Shown in pieces: positions 3,732 through 64,000 of a DNA stretch of 64,000 nt (positions within the stretch are counted from its first letter, which is position 1; every line of letters begins with the position of its first letter). Origin of the DNA: Zea mays (taxonomy: Eukaryota; Streptophyta; Magnoliopsida; Poales; Poaceae); contig NC_050096.1 in the NCBI RefSeq assembly GCF_902167145.1, forward strand, positions 161,757,825 to 161,821,824. Reading direction: 5' to 3'. The notes below the pieces were generated by a model. It did not search any database. It saw only the letters and a program-made list of their open reading frames with translations, and had not been told where the DNA came from. The translations under genes were made by a program, and so were the position numbers.

Positions 3732-6700
3732 TTATAGGTTACATGAAGCTAAAAACCTAGGAAAATTTTTCTCCAAGAAATCTTGAGTCTCCCAGGTAGC
3801 TTCGTCTTCAGTGTGCTGGTTCCATTGTACCTTATAGAATTTAAGAGTCCTCTTCCGTGTGATTCTGTCCTTTTGATCCAGAACTCGAATAGGATGTTCC
3901 AAATAAGTCAAGTCTGGTTCTAAAGTGACATCCGCCACATTGATGGTTCGATCAGGAATCCGAAGGCATTTCTTCAACTGGGATACATGGAACACATTAT
4001 GTATCGTAGATAATGATTCAGGCAGTTGAAGTCTGTACGCCACTGGTCCGCATTGTTCCAGAATGGGAAATGGGCCAATATATCGGGGTGCCAACTTTCC
4101 TTTTACCCCAAACCAATTAACACCCTTCATGGGTGATACTTTCAGGTATACATGTCCTTGACTTGAAAGACCAAAGGTCGGCGTCGTTTATCCGCATAGT
4201 TTTTCTGCCAAGCTTGAGCTTCTTTCAAGTGGTGTCTTATCCGTTGAACCTTTTCTTCCGATTCTTTAACCAAGTCAGGCATGAAAAAGCATTGTTCCCC
4301 TGGTTCAGACTAATTTAAGGGTGTTCGGCATCGTCGCCCGTACAGTGCTTCAAACGGTGCCATCTTAATGCTTTCTTGGTAACTATTATTATAGTAAAAT
4401 TCTTCCAATGGCAGGCAGTCATCCCATTTTTGCGGGAACTCCAGGACACATGCCCGTAGCATATCTTCAAGTATCTGATTTACTCTCTCAGTTTGTCCGC
4501 TTGTTTGAGGATGATAAGCCGAACTGTGGAGTAATTTAGTACCCAAGGATTTGTGCAGTTCTTCCCAAAACTTGGATACAAATTGCGGTTCCCCGTCCGA
4601 CAGTATTGTTTTCGGAACTCCATGCAAACTGAGAATACAAGCAATATAAAGTTCTGTGTACGTGGCCACTGTATATTTTACCTTGACGGGAAGAAAGTGG
4701 GCAATCTTTGTAAGTCTATCAATTATAACCCAGATAGAATCAAATCCTTTAGTTGTCCTAGGTAATCCTACAATGAAATCCATACTAATATCTTCCCATT
4801 TCGAGGTTGGGATTTGCGAAGATTGTAGTTGCCCAGCAGCCTTCATATGTATGGCCTTGACTCATCTGCAAGTGTCACGCTTTGCCACATAGCGTGCAAT
4901 TTCAATCTTCATTTTAGTCCACCAATAATGTTGCTTTAAGTCTTGATACATCTTAGTACTTCCAGGATGAATGGAATATCGACTAAGATGAGCTTCGTCC
5001 AAAACTTGTTGGCGGACTTCAACATCTTTTGGCACTACTATGCGATCATTAAACCAGATTACTCCCTAATTATCTTTTCTGAAGCAATTTGCCTTGCTGA
5101 CTTTTATTTTCTCATGAATGTACTTCATACCCTCATCTATTCTTTGAGCGTCAATAATTCTTTGCAGAAGAACTAACTCAAGCTTCACATTTATCAAAAT
5201 TCCTTGCTGCACTATCCCTAGATTCAACTTCTCCATTTCTTGACATATAGTGGTGTTAGGTGCTCTTACTGTAAGACAATGACAAAATATCTTCCGACTT
5301 AAAGCATCTGCCACCACATTGGCTTTTCCTGGGTGATAATGGATTTCCAAGTCATAATGTTTGATTAGCTCAAGCCATCTTCTCTGCCTCATGTTTAGTT
5401 CCGACTGGGTAAAGATATATTTCAAACTTTTATGATCCGTGTACAAATGGCAGGTATTTCCCAGCAGATAATGACGCCAAATCTTGAGGGCATGAACGAC
5501 TGTAGTTAGTTCCAAGTCATGAGTTGGGTAGTGTTCTTCATGCCGGCGTAGCTGCCTTGAAGCATATGCTATAACTCGCCCTTCTTGCATCAAGACACAT
5601 CCGAGTCCATTGTCTGACGCGTCACAATACACATCAAAAGGCTTTTCAATATCCGGTTGGGCCAACACCGGGGCAGTGGTCAACAACACTTTCAGCTGCT
5701 CAAAGGCTTTGTTGCATTTTGAGGACCAATCAAACTTTGTATCATTCTTCAATAAACCCATAATGGGTTTAACAATCTTGGATAAATCCGGAATGAATCT
5801 ACGGTAATATCCAGCCAGTCCAAGGAAACTCCGAACTTGATGTACTGTAGTAGGTGAGTTCCATTCTAAAATATCTTTGACTTTGCTGGGATCAACCGCA
5901 ATCCCTTTAGTAGACAACACATGTCCAAAAAATTGGATTTCCTCCAACCAGAACGTGCATTTACTGAATTTGGCATACAGCTGATGTTCCCTTAAGCTCG
6001 TTAGCACGATCCGCAAGTGATTTGCATGCTCCTCTTCATTTTTGGAATAGATCAGGATGTCGTCAATGAAGACCACCACAAACTTGTCTAACTCAAGCAT
6101 GAATATCGAATTCATTAAGTATGTGAAGTGGGCTGGAGCATTTGTTAATCCGAAAGACATAACCAGATATTCAAATAACCCATACCGCGTGGTGAATGCG
6201 GTCTTGGGTATATCCTCGGGTTGAATACGGATCTGATGGTAGCCCGATCTGAGATCAATCTTGGAGAATACCCGGGCTCTAGTAAGTTGATCGAATAAAA
6301 TATTGATCCGAGGAAGAGGATATTTGTTCTTGATGGTAACCTCATTGAGGGGTCTATAGTCCATGCACATTCGAAGTGTCTGATCCTTCTTCTTGACGAA
6401 TATTGCTGGACATCCCCATGGTGATGAACTTGGTCTGATGATCCCTTTCTCCAACAAGTCTTGTAGTTGAGTCTTGAGTTCTGCCAGTTCATTAGGTGGC
6501 ATGCGGTACGACCTTCTAGAAATAGGAGTCGTACCGGGCTTCAATTCAATTACAAATTCCACATCCCTTTGAGGAGGCAATCCGGGCAAGTCTTCGGGAA
6601 AGACATCCGGAAATTCACATACCACTGAAATATCCCGAATTTCTTGTACAATGGTTTCAAAAACTTGTCTAGATGCTTTAACTAGGATAGTTATAGGGAT

Positions 6701-7117
6701 GGACAATTGGACTTCTTCATGACCATAACTTAACTTAATGGTCCTTTGGTCTGTATTGATGATGGCTTTATTCTGGGCTAACCAATTCATTCCCAGAATC
6801 ACATCTATATCTTGCCCCTTTATAACAATCATATTTGTAAGGAATTCCCGTTCGGCCAAAGTTACGGGTATGTGGAAGGCTACTTCCTTAGTAAATATTC
6901 GGCCCCCATGTGAGTGGATAACAAATCCCTCCCTTGATTCAGTGCAATGTATGCAACATTTCTCCACAAAACTCTTGCTTATGAAGGTATGTGATGCACC
7001 AGAATCGAAAAGGATAACTGTTGGGTAGTTGGCAACGAGGAACGTACCCATCATCATCGGTTCGCCTTTCGGTGTAGTAGCCACCTGGGTATAATAGACC
7101 CTTCCAGTTTTCTTCAA
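3732..7117 (-). pseudogene. pol: G1 pol remnant (PR, RT, RNase H, integrase, chromodomain)
   Basis: The first 683 codons (7117-5066) are open. They hold an aspartic protease (FDSGAS), a reverse transcriptase with the FIDD catalytic box, and RNase H ([10 protein letters not shown]). A TAG at 5066-5068 and a TGA at 4862-4864 then break the integrase. Its D,D,E core is still visible at 4846-4310 ([25 protein letters not shown]). The HHCC zinc finger just upstream has one Cys replaced by Arg (KRDTC). A TAG at 4310-4312, where the family usually has Trp, and a frameshift near 4130 precede the last part (4130-3732). That part ends in a chromodomain with YKVQW and ATWE. The breaks show it is non-functional. 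Gag and pol share one reading frame, as is usual in this clade. Confidence 0.92.
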
Positions 7118-7177: not shown

Positions 7178-8209
7178 CTACTGAAAGTTGGATTTGTTTT
7201 GCTTCGGATATGGGCAGTCCTTGATGAAATGTCCGGACTTTCCACAATGGAAGCAACCACTGGAGGAACTGGGAAGGGCAGGGAAACGAGTACCAGGGGC
7301 ACTCGGCTGATTGGTTGGAGCGGGGGCAGGAGTGGGACGAATAAATACGGGTTGTTTGAATGGATATGTAGGTGGGCAAGGTGAAGAATAGTTTGGATTA
7401 AAAGGTTGGATTACCAACCTTGTTCTCTTTTCAGGTCCCTGAGTTGATCTTTCACCCGCATATCCCTTTGACTTTCCGTGTCCCGCATTTTTGGCTTCAA
7501 CCGCTAGTGTTGTACTGACATCCCTGTTGTATGTGAGGTCCAAACACGTTGCCATCTTATGCTGGAGTCTGTCATTTAGTCCCCTCATAAAACAATTCTT
7601 CTTTTTCAAGTCCGTATCCACGTGATCAATGGCGTACTGGGAGAGATGATTCAATTTATTGAGATACTGCATCACATAATCTCCCCCTTGCTTCAGTCGG
7701 ATGAACTCTTCCAGTTTCATTTGTAGCACGCCTTCCAGAACATAATGTTCCCTAAATGCCAGTTTAAACTCTTCCCAAGTGACTTAATGTCCCGCATGTT
7801 GGATGGCGAAAACGTTTGCCCACCAAGTGCTGACGGGGCCTCTTAACTGCTAAGCAGCAAATAGGGGCTTCTACACCTCGGTGCATCGGATTAGCCCGAA
7901 TTTCTGTTCCATCACCCGCACCCACTAGTCATCTTCCAAGGGTTCCTCTGCCTTGACGAAGAGCGGTGGTCGGGTTTCGGAGAACTCCAGATAGGTAGTA
8001 TCTCGGGGTCCTTGAGGGGGAACTCTTCCTTCGTGTTGTTGAAATTGGTTGCCCGCCATTTCGCGCAAAAAGCGTGTGTTATCGGCGATGGCGTTGACCA
8101 AGGCAGCAATAGCCTCGGCCAGGGTAGGAGGTACATGTGGCAGATTGGGAGTGTCCTCCCTGCCGCGGGATGTACCTGCCCCATCATGAGCACGAGTCTG
8201 GGATGGCAT
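7178..8209 (-). pseudogene. gag: G1 gag remnant
   Basis: The likely start is the ATG at 8209 (MPSQTRAHDG), although the frame is open back to 8257. The N-terminal part is open to a TAG at 7925-7927. Further in-frame stops lie at 7871-7873, 7850-7852, 7784-7786 and 7178-7180. The capsid region (7729 downward) resembles plant retrotransposon Gag (VTWEEFK, EFIRLKQG). A CX2CX4HX4C zinc knuckle, CFHCGKSGHFIKDC, follows near 7240. Several stops are TAG or TAA where related elements have Gln, as expected for C-to-T changes. After the last stop the frame runs on into pol. Confidence 0.88.
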
Positions 8210-8347: not shown

Positions 8348-8932
8348 CTATACTACTCTAATCTTCTTCATCCTTAGTTGTTCCGCTGCCTGCTTCAAGA
8401 GACCGTTCATCTGCAAGATTCATGGAAGGAGGGGCTCCAAAAAGGTCAATCCCCCATCAAATCCTCCATTTACTGTTCCAGATGGTCCAGCTCCCATTGC
8501 TGCCACATCAGGTGGCACGTTCGGGTGCAGCCGATCATACAATACATGCACTTCTTCATGCAAGGTGTTGCAGTACGCTTGCAGACTTTCGAGGGATGTG
8601 CTAAGTTCTGCTACTCGAGCTAGAGCTTTGGCTTCACAGTCCCAAGAGAAAGAGCGTGAGTTTACGGCCCAGTCAATGGCCATATCATGTTCCGAAATTT
8701 CGTACTACAGGCGATTAACTTCGGCTGATAGTTCAGCAATGTGGCGACTATCGCGCGCACGCTCCCTACACCTGTGGCGTAGTTCAAACCTGAGGCGATC
8801 CACTCTGGCCTCCAAGTCCCCGATGGGGTCGTTACTTCCACTGATGCTTCCTTCATGCCTGGAGGCTAGCTGATGTCGAGGCACACCTTGAGGTCCAGTT
8901 GATTTGCGCTGGGTAGTTTTTGTGCGTGCCAT
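8348..8932 (-). pseudogene. G1 ORF1: histone H3-tail-like N terminus plus coiled coil
   Basis: This is an extra sense ORF upstream of gag, starting at the ATG at 8932 and ending at TAG 8348-8350, about 195 codons. It is broken by an in-frame TAG (8705-8707) and TGA (8420-8422). The first residues MARTKTTQRKSTG match the H3 tail ARTKQTARKSTG at 10 of 12 positions after the Met. A PRHQLA block then lines up with PRKQLA of H3 (residues 16-21) after a one-residue gap. The rest is not a histone fold. It looks like coiled coil, with heptad-like Leu, Glu and Arg spacing (LEARVDRLRFELR, then a segment around ELSTSLESLQ). I see no catalytic motif. Its function is unknown. It is in the same frame as gag and pol but separated by stops. 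The G2 counterpart is at 15173-16186. Confidence 0.75.
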
Positions 8933-9171: not shown

Positions 9172-9185
9172 TCGCTCCGATACCA
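9172..9185 (-). other. Primer binding site of G1
   Basis: On the minus strand TGGTATCGGAGCGA lies two bases inside the 5' LTR end (...GTGACA). It resembles the TGGTATCAGAGC site used by initiator Met-tRNA-primed plant elements, with one G for A change. Confidence 0.85.
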
Positions 9186-12192: not shown

Positions 12193-12288
12193 TAGGGCTG
12201 GAAACGAGCCGAGCCGAGCTCGGCTCGGCTCGCCCATTCCACGAGCTGGCGAAAGAGGCTCGGCTCGGCTCGACCTTGGCTCGCGAGT

Positions 12289-12352
12289 GTAACGCCCTGA
12301 ATTTGGGGGTAGAATTTTTTTCTTCTTTTCTCTTACCAAATTCAGGCGTTAC
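12289..12352 (+). other. Hairpin at the LTR terminus (G2)
   Basis: The left arm GTAACGCCCTGAATTTGG (12289-12306) pairs with CCAAATTCAGGCGTTAC (12336-12352), 17 pairs with one bulged C. The loop is about 29 bases and T-rich. The 3' LTR repeats it at 21183-21247. S1 has the same stem with a paired substitution. Confidence 0.88.
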
Positions 12353-12544
12353 CCTTTTCTTTTCTCGTTCCCTCGCTAAACCTTGATCTTTTCCAAAGTT
12401 ACCGCGGGGTTCGGCTTGGATTTCCCGTGTTAAGAAAAAACCCTAAATCACTTTATGTTGTTTGATGCACCATGCCGAACTATGCATTCTTTGATTGCTT
12501 AGAGATGTAAGTGCATTCATCTAGAAAGATCGGATTTCGAAAAG

Positions 12545-13105
12545 GAGAAAAAAAACCTTTTCTTTCTTTTTCTTTTTCTTTCTCTCTCTCCTCTTTTTCT
12601 CTCTCCCGCGCCGTGGGCCGCCCCGGCCGGCCCAGCCGCCCCCCCGCGCGCCCCCTTTGGGCCCATTGGCCCAGCCGCCCCCTCCCCTTCCCCCCAATCC
12701 CCCCAATCCCTCTCCCTCCCTCTCATTCTCTCTCTTCCCCACCCCAGCCGCCGCCCCCTGCCCTAGCCGCCGCCCCTGCTCGTCGCCGGTTCGGCCGCCC
12801 GTCCCCTTCCCCGGTGAGGTCCCCCTCCCCCATCTCCCCTCCCCTTCCCCCTACCCGGCTCGGCCCCGCCGCTCGGCCGCCCCTGCGCCCCGGTCCGGCC
12901 GCCCGCCGCCCAGCTCGGCCGCCCCCTGGCCGGCTCGGCCGCCGCCGCCCCTGCGCGCTCTGCCCCGCCCCCTGGCCGGCTCGGCCACCCCCTGCCCCTG
13001 CGCCCCCGCCGGTTTGCCCCCCCCCCCCCCGCCAGCTCGGCCGCCCCCGCCCCTGCCCAGGCCGGTTCAACCACCCCCCTGGCCGGTTCAACCGCCCCCC
13101 CCTTT
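12545..13105 (+). repeat. Pyrimidine-rich and GC-rich tract in G2 LTR
   Basis: A CT-rich stretch grades into (C)n and GGCCGGCTCGGCCGCC-like repeats. The complementary strand is G-run rich and could form G-quadruplexes. The two LTR copies differ here mainly by small indels. It spans the likely promoter and leader area of the LTR, but I cannot place a TATA box. Confidence 0.7.
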
Positions 13106-13356
13106 TTATTTATTTTATTTTATTTTATTTTCTTTCGTTACTGTTATTTATTTTATTTTAGGCAGGTTAATCATTGTTCATGTTATTGAAGTAGGAAACT
13201 TAATTTAGAATTCCGTTACGCTAGTTAATTCATATAATCAATTGTTTATCCAGTTCAATGTTGATCAACTAAAAATGACTAGGTTTCCATTAGTGCATAT
13301 AACTAAATTCTTTTGTTAGAACCAAATGTAACTAATCATTAGTGCGTAAGCTTTAA

Positions 13357-13374
13357 CCCCCCCCCCCCCCCCCC
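13357..13374 (+). repeat. Poly-C run
   Basis: Eighteen consecutive C, against twenty at 22287-22306 in the 3' LTR, a length difference that arose after insertion or in sequencing. Confidence 0.9.
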
Positions 13375-13819
13375 GCGAGACCTTTCCCCGTTTCTTTCTA
13401 ACCATAATGAATGCGATATCGAATGTCATACTTGATGCATATCCACTTTATTTGTTCCCTTGTATGATGTACTGTTTGCTTCCCAATTTGAATGGATGTA
13501 TGTATGTATGCTTGCAATCGCATAGAGAACGATCCGGTTGAAGAGCCCGAGGAACTCGCAGGAGAAGCCCCTGAGCAGCAGTCGGTTGGTGGAGGCAATG
13601 TCCTTTGACCTATCTCTGTCCTATTCATTATTTAATTCACCTCCCGCTTTACACATTTATGCCTAAGGACTGACTAGCTTTTGTTATCCATATCCTTGTT
13701 TACCTATATGGGTTGGATTATTATTAGTTAGCTTTATGCTATTGCTCAACTCTAATCAATGAACATGATGAGATTATCTATGATACGTTGTTTTCCCTTC
13801 TCTTATTATGATGTTGTAC

Positions 13820-14265
13820 TTGTGGCTTTAAGGGGGCTCGAGCGGTTTCTCGAGTGCCTCTCCGTAAGGACCTGTTCTATGGATGACCGCCCGGGAAAAC
13901 AGTGCAACCATGAGGGTGGAATGGGATGCCCTTAGCTGAATAATTAGAGGATCTGGGGTGTAGTTCACTTAGTCGTTGTGCCGTCAATGGGGCTCGGTGT
14001 ATGCGGCTCGCTCTGCCAAGTTTGGGTTCGCCCCTTGGGGAGGAGTGTGGTGCATTTAGGAAACCTAACGGGTGGCTACAGCCCCGGGGAATCTTTGTAA
14101 AGGCTACGTAGTGAAACCCTGCCTATTCACCTTGGTAGTGTTTAAGGGTTTGATCGGCCCGAGGCAAGAGGGAATCACGGCTTGTGGGTAAAGTGCACAA
14201 CCTCTGCAGAGTGTTTGAAAACTGATATATCAGCCGTGCTCACGGTTATGAGCGGCCAAGGGAGC
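13820..14265 (+). other. LTR block conserved across three families
   Basis: Contains CCTCTCCGTAAGGACCTGTTC, GGAATGGGATGCCCTTAGCTG, TTTGTAAAGGCTACGTAGTG and CTCTGCAGAGTGT. The same series, in the same order, occurs in S1 (about 34640-35110). In G3 a shorter version without the first motif occurs (about 42000-42375). No shared ORF runs through it. It lies about 650-1100 bp before the LTR end, in the transcribed R/U5 part. Confidence 0.75.
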
Positions 14266-14916
14266 TCCAGTGATTAGTGGTACTTGATCAGAGATACTTT
14301 GGTACAGGTGGCTATGAGATCGATGGTTTTGGTTATGACTATGGTGCTGGTAAGTGGTATTCTTTCCATTCGGAAAGGGTACATCGGGTTAATAACTTGG
14401 GTTAATGCTAAAACTTGGCTTTCTACTAGTAAGTAATAATCTGACCAACTAAAAGCAACTGCTTGACTTATCCCCACATAAAGCTAGTCCACTATAGCCA
14501 AACAGGATACTTGCTGAGTATGTTGATGTGTACTCACCCTTGCTCTACACACCAAACCCCCCCTCCCCAGGTTGTCAGCATTGCAACCACTGCTCAGGCG
14601 AAGATGAAGCTGTGGAAGGAGACTTCCAGGAGTTCCAAGACTACGACGAGTTCTAGGTGTGGGTTAGCGGCAACCCCCAGTCGGCTGCCTGTGAAGGCCG
14701 CGGTTATCTACGTTTCTTTTCCGCACTTTGATTTATTGTAAGGACTATATGGACGTCTCAGACGTATGATGTAATCGACTATTTCCCTTCTTAATACTAC
14801 TTTGAGCACTGTGTGATGATGTCCATGTTATGTAACTGCTGTGTACGTGAATAACTGATCCTGGCACGTACATGGTTCGCATTCGGTTTGCCTTCTAAAA
14901 ACCGGTGTGACATAAG

Positions 14917-14930
14917 TGGTATCAAAGTCG
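14917..14930 (+). other. Primer binding site of G2
   Basis: TGGTATCAAAGTCG starts four bases after the 5' LTR end. It is close to the Met-tRNA type TGGTATCAGAGC, with A for G at one position and a diverged end. Confidence 0.8.
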
Positions 14931-15172
14931 TGCTGACTGTAGGACCGCTAACCTAGAGTAGAATGGTCGTTCTAAGGACTATAGACCTCTGTCCCTGCCT
15001 TGACTTTGATATCCCTTCAAAAGTTGGTCATACCGACCACACCTATGTTCTACTATATATAATACCTTGCTGAAAATCATGTTTTATTCTAATCCTTCAT
15101 TTACTTATGATTTATTATTTGCTGGTCATATTAATTCTGTCCTCACCCTTTTGCTTGCGATGTCTTTTGTAG

Positions 15173-16186
15173 ATGGCTCGACTTAGACACACTGCACGAA
15201 AGTCAGTCATCCCCTTCTTACCCTCCCGCCTTGCTGAGCATCCGCTTCGCCGTCCCGTGGCCGGACAGTCCAGCCACTTGGAGAGACTGCACCACCGCCT
15301 GCATGAGGAGCAGGAACGTCGACGACAGGAGCAGCAGGGCTCTTCCTTCTCGCTCCACCAGGAGATAGAGTCTGTGAGGAGCTGCTCCCCTGTGCTTCCC
15401 CTGGAGGTGCCCCCTACACCATCACTGGGCGCCCCAGCTTCTGGAGTAGCTGCTGGAGGAGACCCAGACGACGGAGGTGGTGACGACAGCTCGAGCCACG
15501 ACATCGACTTCTCTGCTAACCATGAGCCGGAAGGATGGGTTGCTCGACCCATCACTCGCGACGCTGCTCGCGGGTGTCACTTCCACGACGCGCTCGACAC
15601 CCTGCTACGTCGGGCATTTAACCGGCATACTTGGTCCGTTGAGTATAGCTGTGTGGTCTACCAGCACAGTCGCAGGGTCTACCCGGACCGCTGGGAGGCA
15701 ACCTGCTTGGTGCGCTGCCTGGAGAACAGTCTCCAGGGTGCGGAGGCCTGCTCAGAGCACTATTCTATCTCTGAGCGGGACTCAGCTGAGGCAGCCATGC
15801 AGGATGCTGCACGGCGTGCGCTTTCGCACTACTGCTCGGTTTTCGGTGGGGCAGCTGACGGTCTTGACCTGAAGTATTACCCCCGCCGTCCATCTGGCAG
15901 CACAGGAGGCGTGATTGTCTCACCTGTCGGTGAGGGCAATCCTAGGTTGAGCAGCACAGTCAACCTAGCCGCCGTGCTAAACACGGAGCTGGACCATGCA
16001 TTAGACGAGCTGAGTAGGGCTCGTGCTGAGATCGCCCTGCTGCGGGCTGAGCACGCGGAACGTCGTCACCTGGATGGTGGTTCCCCCGCTCCCGTCGGGA
16101 CTCAGCACCCGTACCGCTCACCTCAGCGTGGACACCAGTCTTATGGCAATCCCGACTGCAAGACCAAGATAACCCTAGAACCATAG
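15173..16186 (+). CDS. G2 ORF1: H3-tail-like start, possible dsRBD-like middle, coiled coil
   Basis: An intact 337-codon sense ORF between the PBS and gag, unlike any standard retrotransposon gene. It opens MARLRHTARKSV; after the Met, 7 of 10 residues match the H3 tail, including the whole TARKS block around K9, while K4 is lost. Residues about 35-60 are Gln/Arg/Glu-rich, and about 75-125 look disordered and acidic. Residues about 135-230 hold a compact region: a helix, a strand-rich part, then an Ala-rich helix (SAEAAMQDAARRALSHY). This recalls the layout of a double-stranded RNA-binding domain, which is my inference from pattern only. A short coiled coil follows (ELDHALDELSRARAEIALL). The ATG is preceded by TCTTTTGTAG, a good splice acceptor. 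The gag start has the same layout. Function unknown. Confidence 0.7.
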   Translation: MARLRHTARKSVIPFLPSRLAEHPLRRPVAGQSSHLERLHHRLHEEQERRRQEQQGSSFSLHQEIESVRSCSPVLPLEVPPTPSLGAPASGVAAGGDPDDGGGDDSSSHDIDFSANHEPEGWVARPITRDAARGCHFHDALDTLLRRAFNRHTWSVEYSCVVYQHSRRVYPDRWEATCLVRCLENSLQGAEACSEHYSISERDSAEAAMQDAARRALSHYCSVFGGAADGLDLKYYPRRPSGSTGGVIVSPVGEGNPRLSSTVNLAAVLNTELDHALDELSRARAEIALLRAEHAERRHLDGGSPAPVGTQHPYRSPQRGHQSYGNPDCKTKITLEP

Positions 16187-16205: not shown

Positions 16206-16589
16206 GTAAGTAATACGAAATATATATATATAAGCTTCAGTCTTAGCGTTAGTCTCGCTCTTAGTTAGTCTTAGTTAGACAGGGTAGTTTGCTATATCCT
16301 GTGCATTTATGTTTGTCATGATGAACTATGTTTGGTTTGGATCTTTGTAATGACTGTCACCAGAGTGTGGGTGTCCCCTGCATTTTGGTTTACCTATTAT
16401 GTTAATGGAGTTAGTTATATAGTTGGGAAATCTTTTATTCCACTTTCCTCTTTATCTGAGAAGCTGTGTGGTCTGTGTTGGAGATCAGTGAAGATGCTCA
16501 TCTGTTCAGTGCTGTTGAAGAATTCTATCCTCTTTTCTTATGCTGCAAGATTTGCCAGATCAGTTCTGATGTGTGGTTGCATTCTGCAG
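16206..16589 (+). other. Putative intron between ORF1 and gag in G2
   Basis: GTAAGT at 16206-16211 lies 20 bases after the ORF1 stop and matches the plant splice donor. The sequence ends TTGCATTCTGCAG at 16589, a good acceptor, and the next three bases are the gag ATG. The 384-bp interval is T-rich, as plant introns usually are. Splicing here would move gag close behind ORF1, or bring it to the front if a leader donor were used. No transcript evidence is available to me. Confidence 0.45.
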
Positions 16590-17797
16590 ATGTCAGAGAA
16601 TAGGCGCAGAGGAGGAAGGCGTGCTCAGCAGGAGCGAGCCGCTCAACAGGATGAGGTGCCCCAGCAGCAGCACCTGTCGCCCCGCCCCCGATGTCGATCG
16701 AGCAGATGTTTCTGATGCAGACTCAGGCAGTTCAAGCCATCGGTCAGACTTTGGCCGCCATTCAGCAGCAGCAGCAGCAGCAGGCCCCACCTCAGCCTCA
16801 GATGCCTCAGATGCCCAGAGACAAACGTGCTGAGTTCATGAGAGGTCATCCACCAACGTTCGCTCATTCTTCTGACCCCATGGATGCTGAAGACTGGCTG
16901 CGCACTGTGGAGCGGGAGTTGCATACCGCTCAGTGTGATGACAGGGAGAAAGTCCTGTATGGTCCCCGTCTGTTGAGAGGAGCAGCCCAGTCATGGTGGG
17001 AGTCTTACCTCGCCACCCATGCCCACCCTGACGCCATCACCTGGGAAGAGTTCAGAGGAAGCTTTCGTCAGTACCATGTTCATGCAGGTCTGATGACAGT
17101 GAAGAAGGAGGAGTTCCTGGCCCTCAAGCAAGGGCCATCGTTTGTCAGTGAGTACCGGGACAGGTTTCTGCAGTTGTCTCGCTATGCTCCTGAAGATGTC
17201 AACACCGACGCCAAGCGACAGTACCGTTTCCTGAGAGGCTTGGTTGACACTCTGCAGTACCAACTGATGAATCACACCTTCCCGACATTCCAGCACCTGA
17301 TTGACAGAGCAATCATGACAGAGAGAAAGCGTAAGGAGATGGAAGATCGTAAGCGCAAGATCAGTGGACCCCAGCCTGGAAGCAGCAATCGTCCTCGTTT
17401 CTCAGGCAATCAACCTCAGCAGTTCAGGCAGAACCAGCGTCCACCTCAGCAACATCAGCAATTCCAAAGGCAGTATCCTCAGCACCAGTACCAGAACCGT
17501 CAGAGCAATCAGTCAGGAGGTCAGTTTCAGAGGCAGAATCAGCAAGCACCTCGTCTTCCTGCCCCAGCAACCCAGCAGAACAGTCAGGCAGCACCAGCTC
17601 AGGTTGGAAACAGAGCATGTTTCCACTGTGGAGAGCAAGGCCATTGGGTGATGCAATGTCCGAAGAAGGCAGCCCAGCAGCAGTCAGGCCCCAATGCCCC
17701 AGCAAAGCAGAATGTGCCTCAACCTGGAGCAGGCAATCGCTCTCAGCCGTGCTATAATCATGGGAGACTGAACCACTTGGAGGCTGAAGCAGTTTAG
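16590..17797 (+). pseudogene. gag: G2 gag, with one frameshift near the start
   Basis: The expected start is ATG 16590 (MSENRRRGGRR). A single-base indel in the C-rich stretch 16678-16690 moves the rest into the frame that begins at ATG 16691 and runs 368 codons. That part holds a Gln-rich linker, a retrotransposon Gag domain (DAEDWLRTVEREL, ITWEEFRGSF, LALKQGPSFVSEY) and a Gln/Pro/Arg-rich region. It also has a CX2CX4HX4C zinc knuckle, CFHCGEQGHWVMQC, and a degenerate second one (CYNHGRLNH). It ends in TAG 17795-17797, which is in frame with pol. Starting at 16691 would still give an almost complete Gag, so partial function is possible. Confidence 0.88.
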
Positions 17798-17809: not shown

Positions 17810-20800
17810 ATGATAGTAGGTATGTTCCCAGTCGACTCCCATATTGCAGAAGTCTTATTTGATACTGGAGCAACACATTCTTTCATTACTGCATCATGGG
17901 TAGAAGCACATAATCTTCCAATTACTACCATGTCAACCCCCATTCAAATTGACTCAGCCGGTGGTATTATTCGAGCCGATAGCATTTGTTTGAATATAAG
18001 TGTGGAAATAAGGGGGATAGCGTTTCCCGCCAACCTTATAATAATGGGTACTCAGGGAATAGATGTCATCCTAGGGATGAATTGGCTAGATAAGTACCAG
18101 GCAGTTATCAGTTGTGATAAAAGGACCATCAAGTTGGTGTCCCCACTAGGAGAGGAAGTGGTGACCGAGTTAGTCCCGCCTGAGCCAAAGAAAGGAAGTT
18201 GTTATCAGATAGCTGTTGATAGCAGTGAAGCAGACCCGATCGAGAGTATCAAGGTTGTGTCCGAGTTCCCAGATGTGTTTCCAAAGGACTTACCGGGTAT
18301 GCCACCAGAGCGGAAAGTTGAGTTTGCCATAGAGCTTCTTCCCGGAACCGCCCCTATCTTCAAGAGAGCTTACAGAATATCTGGACCAGAGTTGGTTGAG
18401 CTTAAGAAGCAGATTGATGAGCTGTCAGAGAAAGGTTACATCCGGCCAAGCACCTCGCCTTGGGCCGCCCATGTCCTATTTGTGGAGAAGAAAGATGGCC
18501 CCAAGAGGATGTGTATTGACTACCGAGCTTTGAATGAAGTCACGATCAAGAACAAGTATCCCTTTCCCAGAATAGAAGATCTGTTCGACCAGTTGAGAGG
18601 AGCCAGTGTGTTCTCCAAGATTGATCTGAGGTCAGGTTATCATCAGCTCAGGATCCGACCTTCGGACATTCCGAAGACGGCATTCATTACCAAGTATGGG
18701 TTGTATGAGTTCACAGTGATGTCTTTTGGTTTGACCAATGCGCCAGCATTCTTCATGAACTGGATGAACAGTGTATTCATGGATTACCTTGATAAGTTTG
18801 TGGTGGTATTCATTGATGATATTCTGGTTTATTCTCAAAGCGAAGAAGAGCATGCAGATCATTTGAGGATGGTATTGCAGAGATTGCGAGAGCACCAGTT
18901 GTATGCAAAGTTGAGCAAGTGTGAGTTCTGGATCAGTGAAGTCCTGTTCTTGGGTCACATAATCAACAAAGAAGGATTGGATGTGGATCCGAAGAAAGTG
19001 GCAGACATTTTGAACTGGAAAGCGCCAACAGATGCTAGAGGAATCAAGAGCTTCATTGGAATGGCCGTATACTATCGGCGATTCATTGAAGGGTTTTCGA
19101 AGATTGCGAAACCAATGACAGCGTTGCTAGGCAACAAAGTTGAGTTCAAGTGGACCCAGAAATGTCAAGAGGCCTTTGAAGCGCTGAAAGAGAAGTTGAC
19201 TACAGCGCCTGTCCTAGTCTTGCCTGATGTGCACAAGCCCTTCTCGGTGTATTGTGATGCTTGTTACACAGGTTTGGGATGTGTGTTGATGCAAGAGGGA
19301 AGAGTTGTGGCTTACTCGTCCCGACAGCTGAAGGTTCATGAGAAGAATTACCCAATCCATGATCTAGAGTTGGCAGCAGTGGTTCACGCACTGAAGACAT
19401 GGAGGCACTACCTGTATGGACAGAAATGCGATGTTTACACAGACCACAAGAGTCTGAAGTATATATTCACTCAGTCAGAGTTGAACATGAGGCGACGAAG
19501 ATGGTTAGAGTTGATCAAAGACTATGAGTTGGAGATTCATTACCACCCAGGCAAAGCAAACATAGTGGCAGATGCTTTGAGCAGAAAGAGTCAAGTCAAT
19601 CTGATGGTCGCTCGTCCGATGCCTTATGAGTTAGCCAAGGAGTTCGACAAGTTGAGTCTCGGATTTCTGAATAATTCGCGAGGAGTCACAGTTGAGTTGG
19701 AACCTACCTTGGAGCGCGAAATCAAAGAAGCGCAGAAGGATGATGAGAAAATCAGTGAGATCCGGCGACTGATTCTAGATGGCAGAGGTAAAGATTTTCG
19801 AGAAGATGCAGAAGGCGTGGTATGGTTCAAAGACCACTTGTGTGTTCCCAATGTCCAGTCCATTCGGGAGTTGATTCTCAAGGAAGCTCATGAGACAGCT
19901 TATTCGATTCACCCTGGCAGTGAGAAGATGTATCAGGATCTGAAGAAGAAATTTTGGTGGTACGGAATGAAGAGGGAAATCGCAGAGCATGTGGCTATGT
20001 GCGATAGTTGCCGAAGAATTAAGGCAGAGCACCAGAGACCTGCTGGATTGTTGCAACCGTTGCAGATCCCTCAGTGGAAATGGGATGAAATCGGTATGGA
20101 TTTCATAGTCGGACTGCCTCGCACTCGAGCCGGCTACGATTCCATTTGGGTAGTGGTGGACCGCTTGACCAAGTCAGCCCACTTCATACCTGTCAAGACC
20201 AACTACAGCAGTGCAGTATTGGCAGAATTGTATATGTCTCGGATCGTTTGTCTTCATGGTGTGCCAAAGAAGATAGTGTCAGACAGAGGAACGCAGTTCA
20301 CCTCTCATTTCTGGCGGCAGTTGCATGAAGCTTTGGGCACGCATCTGAATTTCAGTTCCGTCTATCATCCGCAGACAGATGGCCAGACCGAAAGGACCAA
20401 CCAAATTCTTGAAGACATGTTGAGAGCCTGTGCGTTGCAAGATCAGTCCGGATGGGATAAGAGATTGCCTTATGCAGAGTTTTCCTATAACAACAGTTAC
20501 CAGGCCAGTTTGAAGATGTCACCATTTCAGGCGCTCTATGGAAGGAGTTGTAGAACTCCGTTGCAATGGGATCAGCCTGGAGAAAAGCAAGTGTTTGGGC
20601 CAGACATTTTGCTTGAAGCCGAAGAGAACATCAAGATGGTTCGGGAGAATCTGAAGATAGCGCAATCGAGGCAGCGAAGCTATGCAGACACAAGAAGAAG
20701 AGAGCTGAGTTTTGAAGTCGGAGACTTTGTCTATCTGAAAGTGTCACCGATCAGAGGAGTCAAGAGGTTCGGAGTCAAAGGCAAGCTAGCACCCCGCTAC

Positions 20801-21145
20801 ATTGGTCCGTATCAGATTCTTGCAAGACGTGGAGAAGTGGCCTATCAGCTCAGTTTGCCCGAGAGTTTGTCTGCTGTGCATGATGTCTTTCATGTGTCTC
20901 AGTTGAAGAAGTGCTTGCGTGTACCAGAGGAGCAGTTGCCAGTGGAAGGTCTTGAAGTCCAGGAGGACTTGACCTACGTTGAGAAGCCAGTGCAGATCCT
21001 CGAGGTTGCAGACAGAGTCACCCGAAGGAAGACCATCAGAATGTGCAAAGTTAGATGGGATCACCATTCAGAAGAAGAAGCAACCTGGGAGCGTGAAGAT
21101 GATCTGATGACTAAATACCCTGAGCTCTTTGCTAGCCAACCCTGA
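17810..21145 (+). CDS. pol: G2 Pol: protease, RT, RNase H, integrase, chromodomain
   Basis: An open frame of 1111 codons, full length for a chromovirus Pol. The protease has FDTGA with catalytic D18. The RT has the FIDD box at 334-337 and the usual [10 protein letters not shown] block. RNase H begins near YCDAC with D483. The integrase zinc finger is H694, H701, C731, C734, and the catalytic triad is D764, D825, E861 with the canonical 35-residue spacing. The C-terminal tail after about 1050 is a chromodomain (KVRWDHH, ATWE). All key residues are present, so this Pol looks able to act. It is in the same frame as gag, with one TAG between them. The ATG at 17810 is just the first after that stop. 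In intact relatives it would be part of a Gag-Pol polyprotein cut by the protease. Confidence 0.95.
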
Positions 21146-24219: not shown

Positions 24220-25582
24220 GAGTGGGACTCCGACGAGAGCTCCACCGACTCCTCCTCCGACGAGGACGCCACAAACATCGCCATCAACAAGGGCCTTCTC
24301 TTCCCCAACGTCGGCCACAAGTGCCTCATGGCAAAGGACGGCAAGAAGAAGAAGGTAAAATCTAGATCCTCCACTAAGTATGCAACTTCTAGTGATGAGC
24401 AAAATTCTAGTGATGATGAGGATAACTTGCTCACCCTTTTTGCCAACTTAAACATGCAACAAAAGGAAAAATTAAATGAATTAATTAGTGCCATTCATGA
24501 GAAGGATGAACTCTTGGATAGCCAAGAGGACTTCCTTATTAAAGAAAATAAGAAGCATGTTAAAGTTAAAAATGCTTATGCTCAGGAGATAGAAAAATGT
24601 GAAAAATTAACTAGTGAGCTAAGCACTTGCCATGACACTATTTCCAACATTAGACTTGAAAATGATAAATTGATTGCTAAGGTTGAGAAATTAAATGTTA
24701 GTGATGATTCTTTTGTCAACCTTAGAAATGATAATGCCAATTTGATTGCTAAGATTGACAAATTGAATGCATCTCTCTCTAGCCTTAAAATTGAAAATGA
24801 AAAATTAATTGCTAAGGCTAAAGATTTAAATGTTTGCAATGTTTCTATTTCCAATCTTAGAGATGAGAATGCTATTTTACATGCTAAGATTGTTGAATTA
24901 AATACTTGCAAATCCTCTACATCTACTATTGAGCATGTTACTATTTGCACTAGATGTAGAGATATTAATGTTGATGCTATTCATGATCACCTAGCTTTAA
25001 TTAAACAACAAAATGATCACATAGCTCAACTTAGTGCCAAAATCAATGAGCATGACTTAGAAAATGATAAATTTAAATTTGCTAGAAGTATGCTCTATAG
25101 TGGGAGACGCCCTGGGATTAAGGATGGCATTGGCTTCCAAAATGGAGACAATGTCAAGCTTAATGCCCCCAAGAAATTGTCCAACTTTGTTAAGGGCAAG
25201 GCTCCCATGGCTCAGGATAATGAGGGTTACATTTTATACCCTGCCGGTTATCCTGAGCACAAAATTAGGAGAATTCACTCTAGGAAGTCTCACTCTGGGT
25301 CTAATCATGCTTTTATGTATAAGAGTGAGGTATCTAGTTCTAGGCAATCCACTCATGTTAAATTGCCTAAGAAGAAAACTCCTACTGCATCAAATGAACC
25401 TAATATTTCATTTAAGACTTTTGATGCTTCATATGTTTTAACTAACAAATCAGGCAAAGTAGTTGCCAAATATGTTGGGGCCAAACACAAGGGCTCAAAG
25501 ACTTGTGTTTAGGTATCCAAGGTGCTTGTTTCTAATGTAAAAGGATCCAAGACCGTTTGGGTACCTAAGAACAAGGCCTAAA
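24220..25582 (+). pseudogene. gag: C1 gag, C-terminal part with coiled-coil repeats
   Basis: Resumes the frame broken at 12192. An acidic Ser/Asp-rich stretch and a Lys-rich stretch are followed by about 200 residues of heptad-like repeats. These consist of three or four degenerate units around LENDKLIAKVEKLN, LRNDNANLIAKIDKLN and LKIENEKLIAKAKDLN (about 24650-24905), a strong coiled-coil prediction. A TAG at 25510-25512 sits where relatives have Trp; the frame then runs to the natural stop near 25579. Sirevirus Gag proteins are known for a long C-terminal extension, and some bind dynein light chain family proteins. Whether this one does cannot be told from sequence. Confidence 0.88.
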
Positions 25583-25591
25583 TTTGTTTTG

Positions 25592-28500
25592 TAGGTTTAT
25601 GCATCCGGGGGCTCAAGTTGGGTAATTGATAGCGGGTGCACAAACCACATGACAAGGGAGAAAAGGATGTTCTCCTCCTACGAGAAAAACCATGATCCTC
25701 AAAGAGCTATCACATTCGGGGATGCAAATCAAGGTTTGGTCAAAGGACTTGGTAAAATTGATATATCACCTGACCATTCTATTTCCAATGTTTTCTTGTA
25801 GATTCTTTAGATTACAATTTGCTTTCTGTTTCTCAATTATGCAAAATGGGTTACAACTGTCTTTTTACGAATATAGGTGTTACTGTCTTTAGAAGAAGTG
25901 ATGATTCAGTAGCATTTAATGGAGTACTCGAGGGTCAGCTATACTTAGTTGATTTTAATAGAGCTGAACTCGATACTTGCTTAATTGCTAAGACTAACAT
26001 GGGTTGGCTCTGGCATCGCCGACTAGCCCATGTTGGGATGAAGAATCTTCACAAGCTTCTAAAGAGAGAGCACATTTTGGGACTAACAAATGTTCATTTT
26101 GAGAAAGACAGGATTTGTAGCGCATGTCAAGCAGGGAAGCAAGTTGGTGTTCATCATCCACACAAGAACATCATGACGACTGACAGGCCGCTTGAGCTAC
26201 TCCACATGGATCTATTCGGCCCAATAGCTTACATAAGCATCGAAGGGAGTAAGTATTGTCTAGTTATTGTGGATGATTATTCTCGCTTCACTTGGGTGTT
26301 CTTTTTGCAAGAAAAATCACAAACCCAAGAGACCTTAAAGGGATTCTTGAGACGGGCTCAAAATGAGTTCGGCTTAAGGATCAAAAAGATTAGAAGCGAC
26401 AACGGGACAGAGTTCAAGAACTCACAAATAGAAGGCTTCCTTGAGGATGAGGGCATCAAGCATGAGTTCTCTTCTCCCTACACGCCACAACAAAATGGTG
26501 TAGTGGAGAGGAAGAATAGAACTCTACTCGACATGGCGAGGACCATGCTTGATGAGTACAAGACTTCGGACCGATTTTGGGCGGAAGCAATCAACACCGC
26601 TTGCAACGCTATCAACCGTCTCTACCTTCACTGAATCCTCAAGAAGACATCATATGAACTCCTCACCGGTAAAAAGCCCAATGTTTCATATTTTAGAGTC
26701 TTTGGTAGCAAATGTTTTATTCTTGTTAAAAGAGGTAGAAAATCTAAATTTGCTCCTAAGGTTGTAGAAGGCTTTTTACTTGGTTATGACTCAAACACAA
26801 GGGCATATAGAGTCTTTAACAAGTCCACTAGACTAGTTGAAGTTTCTTGTGACATTGTGTTTGATGAGACTAACGGCTCTCAAGTAGAGCAAGTTGATCT
26901 TGATGAGCTAGATGATGAAGAGGCTCCATGCATCGCGCTAAGGAACATGTCCATTGGGGATGTGCGTCCTAAGGAATCCGAAGAGCCTCCACATGCACAA
27001 GATCAACCATCTTCCTCCATGCAAGCATCTCTACCAACCCAAGATGAGGATCAAGCTCAAGATGATGAAAATGAAGATCAAGAGGAGCCACCTCAAGAGG
27101 AGGACAATGATCAAGGGGGAGATGCTAATGATCAAGACAAGGAAGATGATGAGGGTCCAAGGCTGCCTCACCCAAGAGTCCACTAATCAATACAACGAGA
27201 TCACCCCGTGAAAACCATCCTCGGTGATATTCAAAAGGGGGTAACCACTCGATCTCGTGTTGCTCATTTTTGTGAACATTACTCCTTTGTGTCTTCTATT
27301 GAGCCATACAGGGTGGAAGACGCATTAAGGGATTCGGATTGGGTGTTGGCAATGCAAGAGGAACTCAACAACTTCACGAGGAATGAGGTATGGCATCTAG
27401 TTCCACGTCCTAACCAAAATGTTGTAGGAACCAAATGGGTCTTCCGCAACAAACAAGATGAGCATGGTGTGGTGACAAGGAACAAAGCCCGACTTGTGGC
27501 CAAGGGATATTCACAAGTCGAAGGTTTGGATTTTGGTGAAACCTATGCACCCGTAGCTAGGCTTGAGTCAATTCATATATTACTTGCCTATGCTACTTAC
27601 CATGGCTTTAAGCTTTACCAAATGGACGTGAAGAGTGCCTTCCTTAATGGACCAATCAAGGAGGAGGTCTATGTTGAGCAACCTCCCGGCTTTGAAGATA
27701 ATGAGTACCCTAACCATGTCTATAAACTCTCTAAGGCGCTTTATGGGCTCAAGCAAGCCCCAAGAGCATGGTATGAATGCCTAAGAGATTTTCTTATCGC
27801 TAATGGCTTCAAAGTCAGAAAGGTCGATCCTACTCTCTTTACTAAAACTATTGCAAATGATTTGTTTGTATGCCAAATTTATGTTGATGATATCATATTT
27901 GGGTCTACTAACAAATCTACTAGTGAAGAGTTTAGTAGGATAATGGTTCAAAAATTCGAGATGTCTATGATGGGGGAGTTGAAGTATTTTCTAGGATTTT
28001 AAGTCAAGCAACTCCAAGAGGGCACCTTCATTAGCCAAACAAAGTACATTCAAGACATACTCACCAAGTTTGGGATGAAGGATGTCAAGCCCATCAAGAC
28101 ACCCATGGGAACTAATGCGCATCTCGACCTCGACACGGAAGGTAAATCCGTAGATCAAAAGGTATACCGGTCGATGATAGGATCTTTACTCTATTTATGT
28201 GCATCTCGACCGGATATTATACTTTCTGTATGCATGTGTGCAAGATTCCAAGCCGATCCTAAGGAAGTTCACCTTAGGGCCGTGAAATGAATCTTGAGAT
28301 ATTTAGTTCATACTCCTAAGTTTGGCCTTTGGTACCCCAAGGGATCCACTTTTGATTTAATTGGATATTCAGATGTTGATTGGGCAGGGTGTAAGATTGA
28401 TAGAAAGAGCACATCAGGGACTTGCCAGTTCTTGGGAAGATCTCTGGTGTCTTGGGCTTATAAGAAACAAAATTATGTAGCTCTTTCTACCGCCAAAGCC

Positions 28501-39592: not shown

Positions 39593-40361
39593 TGTAATAC
39601 CCATTTTTGTAAAAGAAATAAAAGGAGAATTTATTTTCCTTTATATGTGAACTTTCCATTTATCATCACATGTGAACACTTCATTTGAAAATAAATGATT
39701 AATAAGAATATATATATACCACTATATTATGCATCATGCTGGATTTTGTTTTGTGTGCATTTTATGTCAACATAAAATAATTTAAAGAAGAAATATATTA
39801 AATTCCCAAAATAGAATTTGGAAAATAAAAGGAGATCCTATAATTTGAGGAAAGAGAAGAAGAATACTATACAAGATAGAGAGATAAATATTAAAGAAAT
39901 AATAAATAAACTCATATCATGCCATGTTTAAGATGTATATTTTATGAGAATATAGATGTACAAGAAGTCTGAACTTTAATGGAAATTAAATTATGAATTT
40001 GAAAATTATAAAAGAAAAGGAAAAGCAAAATATAAAAGAAAATGGAGAAATGCTAGAATGGGCCAGAATCCCTGCTTTGGGCCCACTCAGGAAAACGCGT
40101 CGCGCAGCCCATTACACCCCACATCCCTGCGCGCCATGGCGCCGACACGTGGACCCCTTGCGTCGGTTACCCGCACGCTTCGATCTCTGCTCGTTTGGGC
40201 CCGCTCGTCAGACGGCCTTGTTCCTTTGCGCGTCGTTCTGTCGCCGGCTGGTGGGCCCGAGCAGCTCGGCTCCGTCTTCCTCGCGCTGTTAGGCGCAACA
40301 ACCTGGCGAACTCGGCGGATCTCCCCCGCCAGAACCGGACCACGCGGACCACGCTGAGGAT

Positions 40362-40370
40362 GCATAAAAG
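40362..40370 (+). promoter_or_regulatory. TATA-like box in G3 LTR
   Basis: GCATAAAAG at the downstream end of a GC-rich stretch. The 3' LTR has the same at about 44926-44934. Placement is plausible for the U3/R boundary but unproven. Confidence 0.45.
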
Positions 40371-41999
40371 CCTCGGCCGTCGACTTATTCCACTCGTTCC
40401 CTTTTTCCTCTGCTCCTTCTTCTACCTCCTCGCGCGAGTTTGGCTCACCAGAACCACCGCCGCTACCAGTGCCGAGCCCGCCGCCGCCGAGGGACTTCAA
40501 CGCGCCGCCATCCCCCGAGCTTCTTCGTGCCTGCTCTCTGCTGTTGGGCGGGACCGCGGGGGCGCGTGCGAGCGTTCGAACGGGAGCTCTATGGTCGGGA
40601 AAGCTATCGGTAAGCACCACCCCGAACTCTCTTTCTCTCCCCTCGTCGTCAGTTCATGCATGGCCGAGGTAGAACCTGGGAGCTGCTCGGCGTTTAGCAT
40701 TGAGCGGCGTCGGCATTGGGGATTATAGATGGGGCGCCTGGGAGGGGACGAACTACGGCGAAAGTGCGACTGGGGGCACTCCTCGTCGCCGGTGAGAGCT
40801 CCGGCGCGTCGGGGCGCGCTGTGTGCATGCGCGCGATGGAGAAGAAAGCTGGCGACCGTGGGATTTATAGTTGACGGCTGCGATTAGATATGGAGTATCC
40901 TATTCTCGCGCGGTCGATCCCAGCCCTTCATCGAGAATCGGTCGGTAGAAGCGTGTCTTCACTAAATTCGAATCTGGACCGTAGCTGGCTAATCGTAGGG
41001 CTGTGGCGTGATCGGTGGAGTGGATCGATCCTGACCGTTGACCATCGATCGGGCGGGTGCGGGTGATCGTCCACCCTAGATGAAGATCGATCTAATCGGA
41101 TCCACTAGTTTCTAATCCGACGGCTGGCAAACGTCAGTACCCCTTCGGCCTGGATATTTTTCTCTAAAGAGCCCTCGGCTTATTTAGAAATCAACCCGCC
41201 ATCCACCGTGGGGTAGATCTGTGTCTTGGGACTTTTCGCGCATTAACCCCTGGACTTTCCTGTAATTGAGGCTCAGTCCAGTGGCGTGTTAAAATGAATA
41301 AATGAATTATAAAATAGGTTTTTATGATATAAATGAGTGCTAGAACTTCAATAATTCATAGTAAATTCATTTTAACTCTAAATTGAGTCATTCCAGTTGC
41401 AATAATTTTGTATTAATATTGTTTATCACCTAGTACCTTTGTTTCACCATGAAACTTGAATTAAAGTTGTTCATAAGGATTAATCTATTCTAAGCACTAA
41501 ATAATTTTGTAAATTCATAACTTAATAACCGTAACTCTGAATTTAGCGGTTCTCGAATCCACGATCTCGTATTGACGCATGGATTACTATTATGCAGTGT
41601 GTGCTTATGTCTGATGTGATGTTAATTTTGCCTATACCATGTTTCGTTTGTATTGCTACGACTAGCAGTGAGGACACGTGTCACTTGAAGATCATCCTGG
41701 TACCTGGAATCTCAAGTCCCAGGCAAGTTGTGCCCTTGATCACTTCTTTTACCCACTCATGTTCTAATTAATCATAATGATCTGCATAGGTTAATTTTGA
41801 TGGGACCTAATAGGTTACCCTAGTTTGTCTATCTTTATGCCTTGTTTACCACTGAACTTTTTGGGTAGTACTTGCTAGTGCTATATGTGGTTTTGGGCAT
41901 TGAGATACACATTATTCATGATTATACTTTTGTTATCCGTTGTTATTTACTGTTCATGTCAAGATCATTAATGTTAATTGGAACATAGAGCTTAACTTG

Positions 42000-63700: not shown

Positions 63701-63982
63701 AGGAACGGGTACAACCCTGGTCGGGTAGATATAAGGTGATCTCGCATCCAAAGGGGAGTGGATTTCTATGGCTCTAGCTGCAACATCAATCACCGTGTGG
63801 TGTCGTGATAACCAATCAGTCCCTAAGATGATATCCACACTATCCAATCCCATTATCAAGAGAGTGGTTTTGAAAATGAAACTATCCAGCTTAATTGGTA
63901 CGTGTCTATTGATCTGATAGGTGGCAACCCTGCCTCCTGGTGTTGAGATTGTAATGCCCCCATTGGTGTGGTGAAAAGGCAA
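60724..63982 (-). pseudogene. pol: G4 pol remnant (PR to chromodomain)
   Basis: Read right to left: the protease tail (63982-63686, IILGTDWLS) is shifted one frame from the RT. The RT (63689-62721) has FIDD and [14 protein letters not shown] at 62721-62723, where Lys is usual, is followed by RNase H ([11 protein letters not shown]). A TAA at 62145-62147 precedes the integrase, which keeps the zinc finger (H..H and CDTC), [17 protein letters not shown] and GQIERVNQ. A frameshift in a CT repeat near 61310 leads to the last part (61341-60724). That part ends in a chromodomain (YPIKVLDQKERS, YKVQW, AIWE). Gag and any ORF1 lie outside the window. Confidence 0.92.
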
Positions 63983-64000
63983 TTGACACTTGGCACTAAA

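Follow-up and report, generated by a model that had tools for sequence, protein, structure and literature searches.

Short stretches resembling the tail of histone H3 have been reported in proteins of several viruses; the review PMC10208167 names influenza NS1 (motif ARSK), the hepatitis delta antigen, adenovirus protein VII and SARS-CoV-2 ORF8 (motif ARKS). Candidate sites resembling H3 around lysine 9 (H3K9) are also described in non-histone proteins of the host (PMC10611923); these belong to host proteins, not to mobile elements. A reader domain, the integrase chromodomain of MAGGY and of plant group II elements, links chromoviruses to H3K9. PMC3350952 describes the group II chromodomains as devoid of the aromatic cage and their binding partner as unknown, and PMC12786077 says the same of their mechanism. 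Here we analysed a stretch of 64,000 nucleotides of Zea mays DNA (the window; GCF_902167145.1, contig NC_050096.1, positions 161,757,825-161,821,824), in which an earlier, sequence-only reading had noticed an open reading frame (ORF) upstream of gag in a chromovirus termed G1, with a product that begins like H3. As in the viral cases, a short H3-tail-like motif sits on a non-histone protein of a genetic parasite. In contrast to the C-terminal ARSK of NS1, it stands at the exact N-terminus, in the register of H3, over 12-22 residues in the G1 family, and in a retrotransposon. The element would encode the ligand, whereas MAGGY and the plant group II elements encode the reader.

Extra ORFs upstream of gag-pol, divergent between families as they are here, have been described for elements of the Tekay lineage or related to it as ORF0 or 5' additional ORF (5' aORF), among them Retrosat2, RIRE3, RIRE8, FRetro3 and group 2 of the sunflower Tekay elements (PMC3485330, PMC11728184), and additional retrotransposon ORFs are covered by a review (PMC7264820). 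Tekay-related ORF0 proteins were modelled as catabolic enzymes, with an effect on transposition called unclear (PMC3485330), and maize and sorghum Tekay 5' ORFs showed disorder, helices and a weak DRBM-like structural match (PMC11728184). Compared by position and description, an H3-like N-terminus is not described in the sections of PMC3485330 and PMC11728184 considered here, and the word "histone" is absent from the main text of both and of PMC7264820. Nor did we recognise a description of an H3-like ORF0 in titles and abstract starts of the open literature, outside which subscription journals mostly lie. We know of no established function for Tekay ORF0.

On the minus strand of the window, the G1 ORF0 (8348-8932) starts with an ATG at 8932 and reads MARTKTTQRKSTGPQGVPRHQLA, or over a longer stretch MARTKTTQRKSTGPQGVPRHQLASR..., with an in-frame stop two codons 5' of the ATG. 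It shares 10 of 12 residues with H3 1-12, and, once a single extra residue is allowed for, a block PRHQLA lines up with H3 16-21 in alignments to PDB H3 chains; in both respects the sequence-only reading was correct. The H3-tail-like segment comprises codons 2-23 (8864-8929, ARTKTTQRKSTGPQGVPRHQLA). A second ORF0 with such a start lies on the plus strand at 15173-16186, in the same pre-gag position of a different chromovirus (family 2). It is intact, encodes 337 amino acids and begins MARLRHTARKSVIPFLPSRLAE, that is, with MARLRHTARKS (7/12 identities to H3 1-12); its tail likewise spans codons 2-23 (15176-15241, ARLRHTARKSVIPFLPSRLAEH). Both ORFs lie in sense orientation between primer-binding site and gag, as ORF0 and 5' aORF do. 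We provisionally call both families Tekay-type on the basis of gag-pol domains and a group II chromodomain. Our reading, which we hold to be evenly poised between right and wrong, is that ORF0 of at least two Tekay-type chromovirus families starts with a K9-centred mimic of the H3 tail, with a decoy or adaptor function that we infer.

The H3-like start of the G1 ORF0 is real and above chance. We compared all ATG-started frames of at least 60 amino acids in the window (255, nested starts counted apart) with H3 residues 1-12, and 253 of them showed 0-4 identities; the G1 ORF0, with 10, and the ORF at 15173, with 7, were the sole outliers. Given the composition of the window ORFs, the probability of at least 10 identities in 12 is 3.1e-11, and that of at least 7 among the first 10 is 3.3e-7. 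When the first 25 residues were shuffled, an equal or better H3 alignment arose in 0 of 100,000 cases for the G1 copy of the window and in 3 of 100,000 for family 2. A third chromovirus served as control: shuffles of its ORF0 matched or beat the H3 alignment in 83,127 of 100,000 cases. At the DNA level, a degenerate pattern for MAR-x-[K/R]-x-TARK-[S/T], which admits some other residues, matched 5,394 genome sites (0 for the reversed pattern); those listed all lie on the first contig and belong to family 2 or close variants, and H3 genes, which are expected to match, were not separated from the 5,394.

Searches that were not aimed at histones gave the same answer for G1. With the intact G1 ORF0 as phmmer query against 177,635 distinct PDB sequences, an H3-type chain came top (E 0.11), and H3 and H3 chimeras, one of them labelled Cse4, made up 39 of the 46 rows at E <= 10. 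These H3 rows aligned from query residue 1 or 2, and most ended by about residue 39. A G1 profile built from 29 homologues (A2) again placed histone H3 on top (E 0.0032); of its 147 rows 60 were listed, and 55 of these are H3, with alignments that begin at profile position 1 or 2. The third chromovirus ORF0 found H3 in 0 of its 7 PDB matches. When the G1 and family 2 profiles were aligned with each other (hhalign), only residues 1-19 matched (E 0.001, probability 21%); the bodies of the proteins did not. Scans of viral contigs revealed no relatives, and the family 2 ORF0 had no Pfam match at E <= 0.01.

In family 2, the likeness is held by very strong purifying selection. Homologues were drawn from one genome and from metagenome-derived proteins, and conservation was counted over the best 120 matches listed, which favours close, intact relatives. 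Family 2 ORF0 is abundant (119 scored matches among 11,151 candidates), and 110 of these 119 best-scoring copies have no stops. Over the 75 of 120 listed homologues with at least 320 amino acids, the mean top-residue frequency was 0.939 in residues 2-23 versus 0.866 in the rest. Codons separate the tail more sharply. Between subfamilies A and B, codons 2-23 differ on average by 11.9 synonymous and 0.16 nonsynonymous changes (synonymous divergence, dS, 1.33; nonsynonymous divergence, dN, 0.003), versus dS 0.83 and dN 0.15 in the remaining codons, so that the tail ranks first of 315 windows as the most constrained stretch. This test used 28 of 30 fetched subfamily A copies (2 with stops were dropped) and only 4 of subfamily B; all of them rank high as whole-protein matches to their queries, which again favours intact copies. 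When 22 codons were drawn at random, 10 of 20,000 draws came as low as the tail (14 subfamily A copies). The synonymous change lies mostly in codons 12-23; codons 2-11 alone hold about 3 synonymous and 0.1 nonsynonymous differences. Subfamily C, with a tail that reads mostly MARIRCTARKSVIP, departs from A and B chiefly at positions 3 and 5, where the residues do not match H3 in any case. A split of the codons into H3-identical and other ones is circular and was not counted as evidence.

The G1 family did not show this pattern. Across 101 of the 120 listed homologues, residues 2-23 had a mean top-residue frequency of 0.826 versus 0.846 in the rest (window rank 124 of 169), and between subfamilies (8 versus 16 copies) dN was 0.26 in the tail versus 0.32 in the rest, which does not make the tail special. 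By the criterion of the sequence-only reading, that homologues conserve the H3-like residues above the remainder of the ORF, the G1 family gives no support, and selection on the N-terminal segment, which that reading had proposed to examine, stands out in family 2 but in G1 does not exceed that on the rest of the ORF. Fixed or nearly fixed changes separate the G1 subfamilies at H3 positions 1 (A/P), 4 (K/R), 5, 7 (Q/A) and 14, while T6, R8, K9, S10, T11, G12, P16, R17, Q19, L20 and A21 are mostly kept. Many arginine losses in G1 lead to His or Cys, the pattern that decay of CpG would leave in dead copies, an origin that we infer.

Both families share R2, T6 and R8-K9-S10, which makes the K9 site, and not the K4 site, the conserved part. 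Among 100 G1 homologues with a residue at position 4 (from the best 120 listed), 55 have K and 40 R; Arg is present in 16/16 copies of the subfamily G1b and is the main residue in family 2 (75/78, a set that includes 3 proteins admitted by a rule requiring RKS; without them, at 75 of 120, the conservation result is almost the same). Of the claim that both methylation sites are kept, the K9 half survives and the K4 half does not, and we rejected K4 mimicry as a conserved feature.

The copy of the G1 ORF0 in the window is broken. The sequence-only reading had treated 8348-8932 as an open ORF, but in-frame stops at codon 76 (8705-8707) and codon 171 (8420-8422), together with C-terminal residues shifted out of the frame that intact copies use, rule this out. 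Close copies were numerous (40 scored among 2,148 genome candidates), and in the subfamily of the window the frame was open in 2 of 8 fetched copies. One of these (L003:1511-2086, 191 amino acids) is intact; the other (L004) has His in place of R2. In the model of the intact relative, the N-terminal 35 residues are unstructured at low confidence and presumably disordered. They are followed by a single long helix of 100 residues (36-135; predicted local distance difference test score, pLDDT, mostly 95-98) and an unstructured, disordered end. No histone fold appears in this model, and the earlier statement that the remainder of the protein is not a histone fold stands. The family 2 model begins without structure and continues with a helix, a helix-strand-strand-strand-helix part of poor quality and a C-terminal helix (mean pLDDT 47.7), and Foldseek found no fold match in PDB at E <= 0.001. 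The H3-like segments thus lie, in both families, in tails modelled without structure, at low confidence, where they would be accessible. A double-stranded RNA-binding fold was considered for residues 137-224 of family 2 (window 15581-15844), which have the right order of helix, three strands and helix; with the same low pLDDT of 47.7 and the empty Foldseek result it was not accepted.

The G1 integrase carries a chromodomain, as had been said: Pfam identified an integrase SH3-like domain and a group II type chromodomain at 3732-4130 (minus strand), the latter with 29.5 bits against a cut-off of 25.1. The chromodomain-like stretch of family 2 (21014-21130, plus strand) is weak and stays below that cut-off (19.3 bits). 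Judged against an HP1a sequence (numbering Y24, W45, Y48), both have kept only the tryptophan W45 of the three cage aromatics, with Y24 replaced by I or V and Y48 by H, as in group II chromodomains, which retain W45 and lose Y24 and usually Y48. With two of the three cage aromatics lost, the earlier proposal that the element's own chromodomain reads the methylated tail is doubtful, and we set it aside as the lead model.

If the tail is a K9-centred mimic, the initiator methionine would be removed and the ORF0 protein would enter the nucleus, where a coiled-coil assembly could display several tails at once. The nuclear location predicted for grass Tekay 5' aORFs (PMC11728184) speaks for this reading. 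Host factors of the H3K9 pathway, namely SUVH-type methyltransferases or H3K9 readers, might then recognise the K9 site, or an S10 kinase might. Its likeliest use would be either as a decoy that draws silencing factors off the chromatin of the element, or as an adaptor that docks the element's complex to heterochromatin proteins. On the most likely reading, the carrier would be a coiled-coil or multidomain nuclear protein. A bolder form of the idea, which we put forward tentatively and consider rather doubtful, holds that abundant grass chromoviruses make their own H3K9-tail mimic, a multivalent coiled coil with N-termini methylated by host silencing enzymes and bound to H3K9 readers, and that it either acts as a sink, weakening the silencing of the element, or supplies the ligand that the cage-poor group II chromodomain is missing. 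If the mimicry is true, it would extend histone mimicry from viruses to plant retrotransposons, at the N-terminus as in H3 itself. A tail centred on H3K9 gives a specific handle on how very abundant retrotransposons of a major crop genome might encounter the machinery that silences them. It is also a candidate for the partner that plant group II chromodomains bind.

Several observations count against mimicry. The family 2 match is limited to 7/12 and does not include T11-G12 or the PRKQLA part; its profile had one PDB match, which was not H3, and by residue frequency its tail ranks 8 of 315, with seven other 22-residue windows more conserved. The H3 residues themselves vary in G1: A1 is mostly Pro (13/16) and K4 is Arg in G1b, and A7 is Gln in the subfamily of the window. 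The position of the tail may vary as well: the claim that it sits exactly at the N-terminus holds for the window copy, with its stop two codons before the ATG, but in G1b the tail may be internal because an upstream in-frame ATG is present in 14/16 fetched copies; such an ATG also precedes the open copy L004. The third chromovirus, as an internal control, has no H3-like start in its pre-gag ORF, and among the viral precedents the ARKS mimicry of ORF8 is disputed (PMC10833455). As a rival reading, the tail could be a conserved basic N-terminal signal with another job, whether import into the nucleus, binding of RNA or DNA, or service as a basophilic kinase site (T-x-R-K-S), with the H3 likeness a convergence. 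For it speak the conserved stretch of family 2, which runs on to residue 23 (VIPFLPSRLAE), where it is not H3-like, the residues common to both families, which are of the types R, K, S and T, and the predicted nuclear location of grass Tekay 5' aORFs (PMC11728184). We nevertheless judge such a signal unlikely: it does not predict 10/12 identities in register from residue 1 together with PRxQLA, to which none of the shuffled sequences came equal, and the G1 profile search is topped by H3 and not by other basic proteins.

Common descent is suggested by the alignment of the two tails from residue 1 and by features that both share and H3 does not have, namely Pro at position 13 and an Arg at position 4 that only part of the G1 family has. 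The tail could accordingly be what remains of an H3 first exon once captured by the element, or else an old N-terminal peptide retained in the service of translation or stability, in either case with no mimicry. We hold this to be improbable, given amino acid constraint in family 2 at high synonymous divergence, H3 alignments that mostly end by about residue 39 and a model free of any histone fold. Quite unlikely, too, is a tail that is bound by Gag or by the group II chromodomain of its own element and so tethers ORF0 to the integration complex. Ligand and reader encoded together would be economical, both tail-bearing elements encode a chromodomain-like C-terminus (below the Pfam cut-off in family 2), and plant group II chromodomains still want a described partner; yet the mostly lost cage makes methyl-lysine reading unlikely in both elements, and the third element has a chromodomain-like end (W45 kept, perhaps Y24) without a tail. 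The element's own chromodomain might still bind the tail in a way that does not depend on the cage. The motif is short and the database E-values for the single ORF are weak (at least 0.11), as a chance resemblance would have it. Against chance, which we regard as highly improbable, stand the composition-based probability of 10/12, the coincidence that the only two outliers of the window are the two ORF0s, and the selection on the second. K9-centred mimicry of the H3 tail is the reading we prefer.

The remaining parts of both elements are those of chromoviruses. In G1 (minus strand), a primer-binding-site-like sequence, TGGTATCGGAGC, lies upstream of ORF0 (9174-9185), and we take it to be of the tRNA-Met type. 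The gag region (7178-8209) is interrupted by stops and has a zinc knuckle and a weak Retrotrans_gag match below the Pfam cut-off; Pfam identified protease, reverse transcriptase and RNase H at 5066-7057. Family 2 (plus strand) has a 5' long terminal repeat (LTR) at 12288-14912, with ends inferred from TG..CA and the other copy about 8.9 kb downstream, a primer-binding-site-like TGGTATCAAAGT (14917-14928), gag (16691-17797, its upstream part lying in a different frame here) and pol (17810-21145). Pfam found reverse transcriptase, RNase H and protease domains in pol as in G1, and integrase domains as well.

The stretch from the primer-binding site of family 2 to the ATG of its ORF0 contains five upstream ATGs. 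A splice-acceptor-like tract (TCTTTTGTAG, 15163-15172) stands directly 5' of that ATG, and the gag ATG likewise directly follows a splice-acceptor-like ...AG (16580-16589). In 30/30 copies, found with the tail pattern, such a tract ends directly at the ORF0 ATG (29 with TTTTGTAG, 1 with TTTTATAG). A splice-based expression of ORF0 stays an idea, because the donor-like GGTAAGT (14349, in the 5' LTR) was seen in subfamily A only (20/20 copies, 0/10 in subfamily B).

The pol of the third chromovirus was identified by eye from translations (60724-64000, minus strand), and its pre-gag ORF lies just right of the window (L039:1935-2669, 245 amino acids; 10,548 genome candidates, 150 scored). Near its C-terminus, this ORF weakly matched coiled coils in PDB. 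In the chromodomain-like end of the element, W45 is kept, Y48 is replaced by H and Y24 is possibly kept (gapped alignment). The ATGs of its ORF0 and gag (L039, upstream of 2669) also stand directly after a splice-acceptor-like ...AG.

Elsewhere in the window, integrase and reverse transcriptase fragments at 24328-28002, with a long coil-rich ORF at 24328-25512, look to us like a copia-type element. Two near-identical pairs of ORF-like stretches, 4.6-4.7 kb apart (40360-40728 and 44924-45292; 48490-48816 and 53220-53546), suggest duplicated or tandem repeats.
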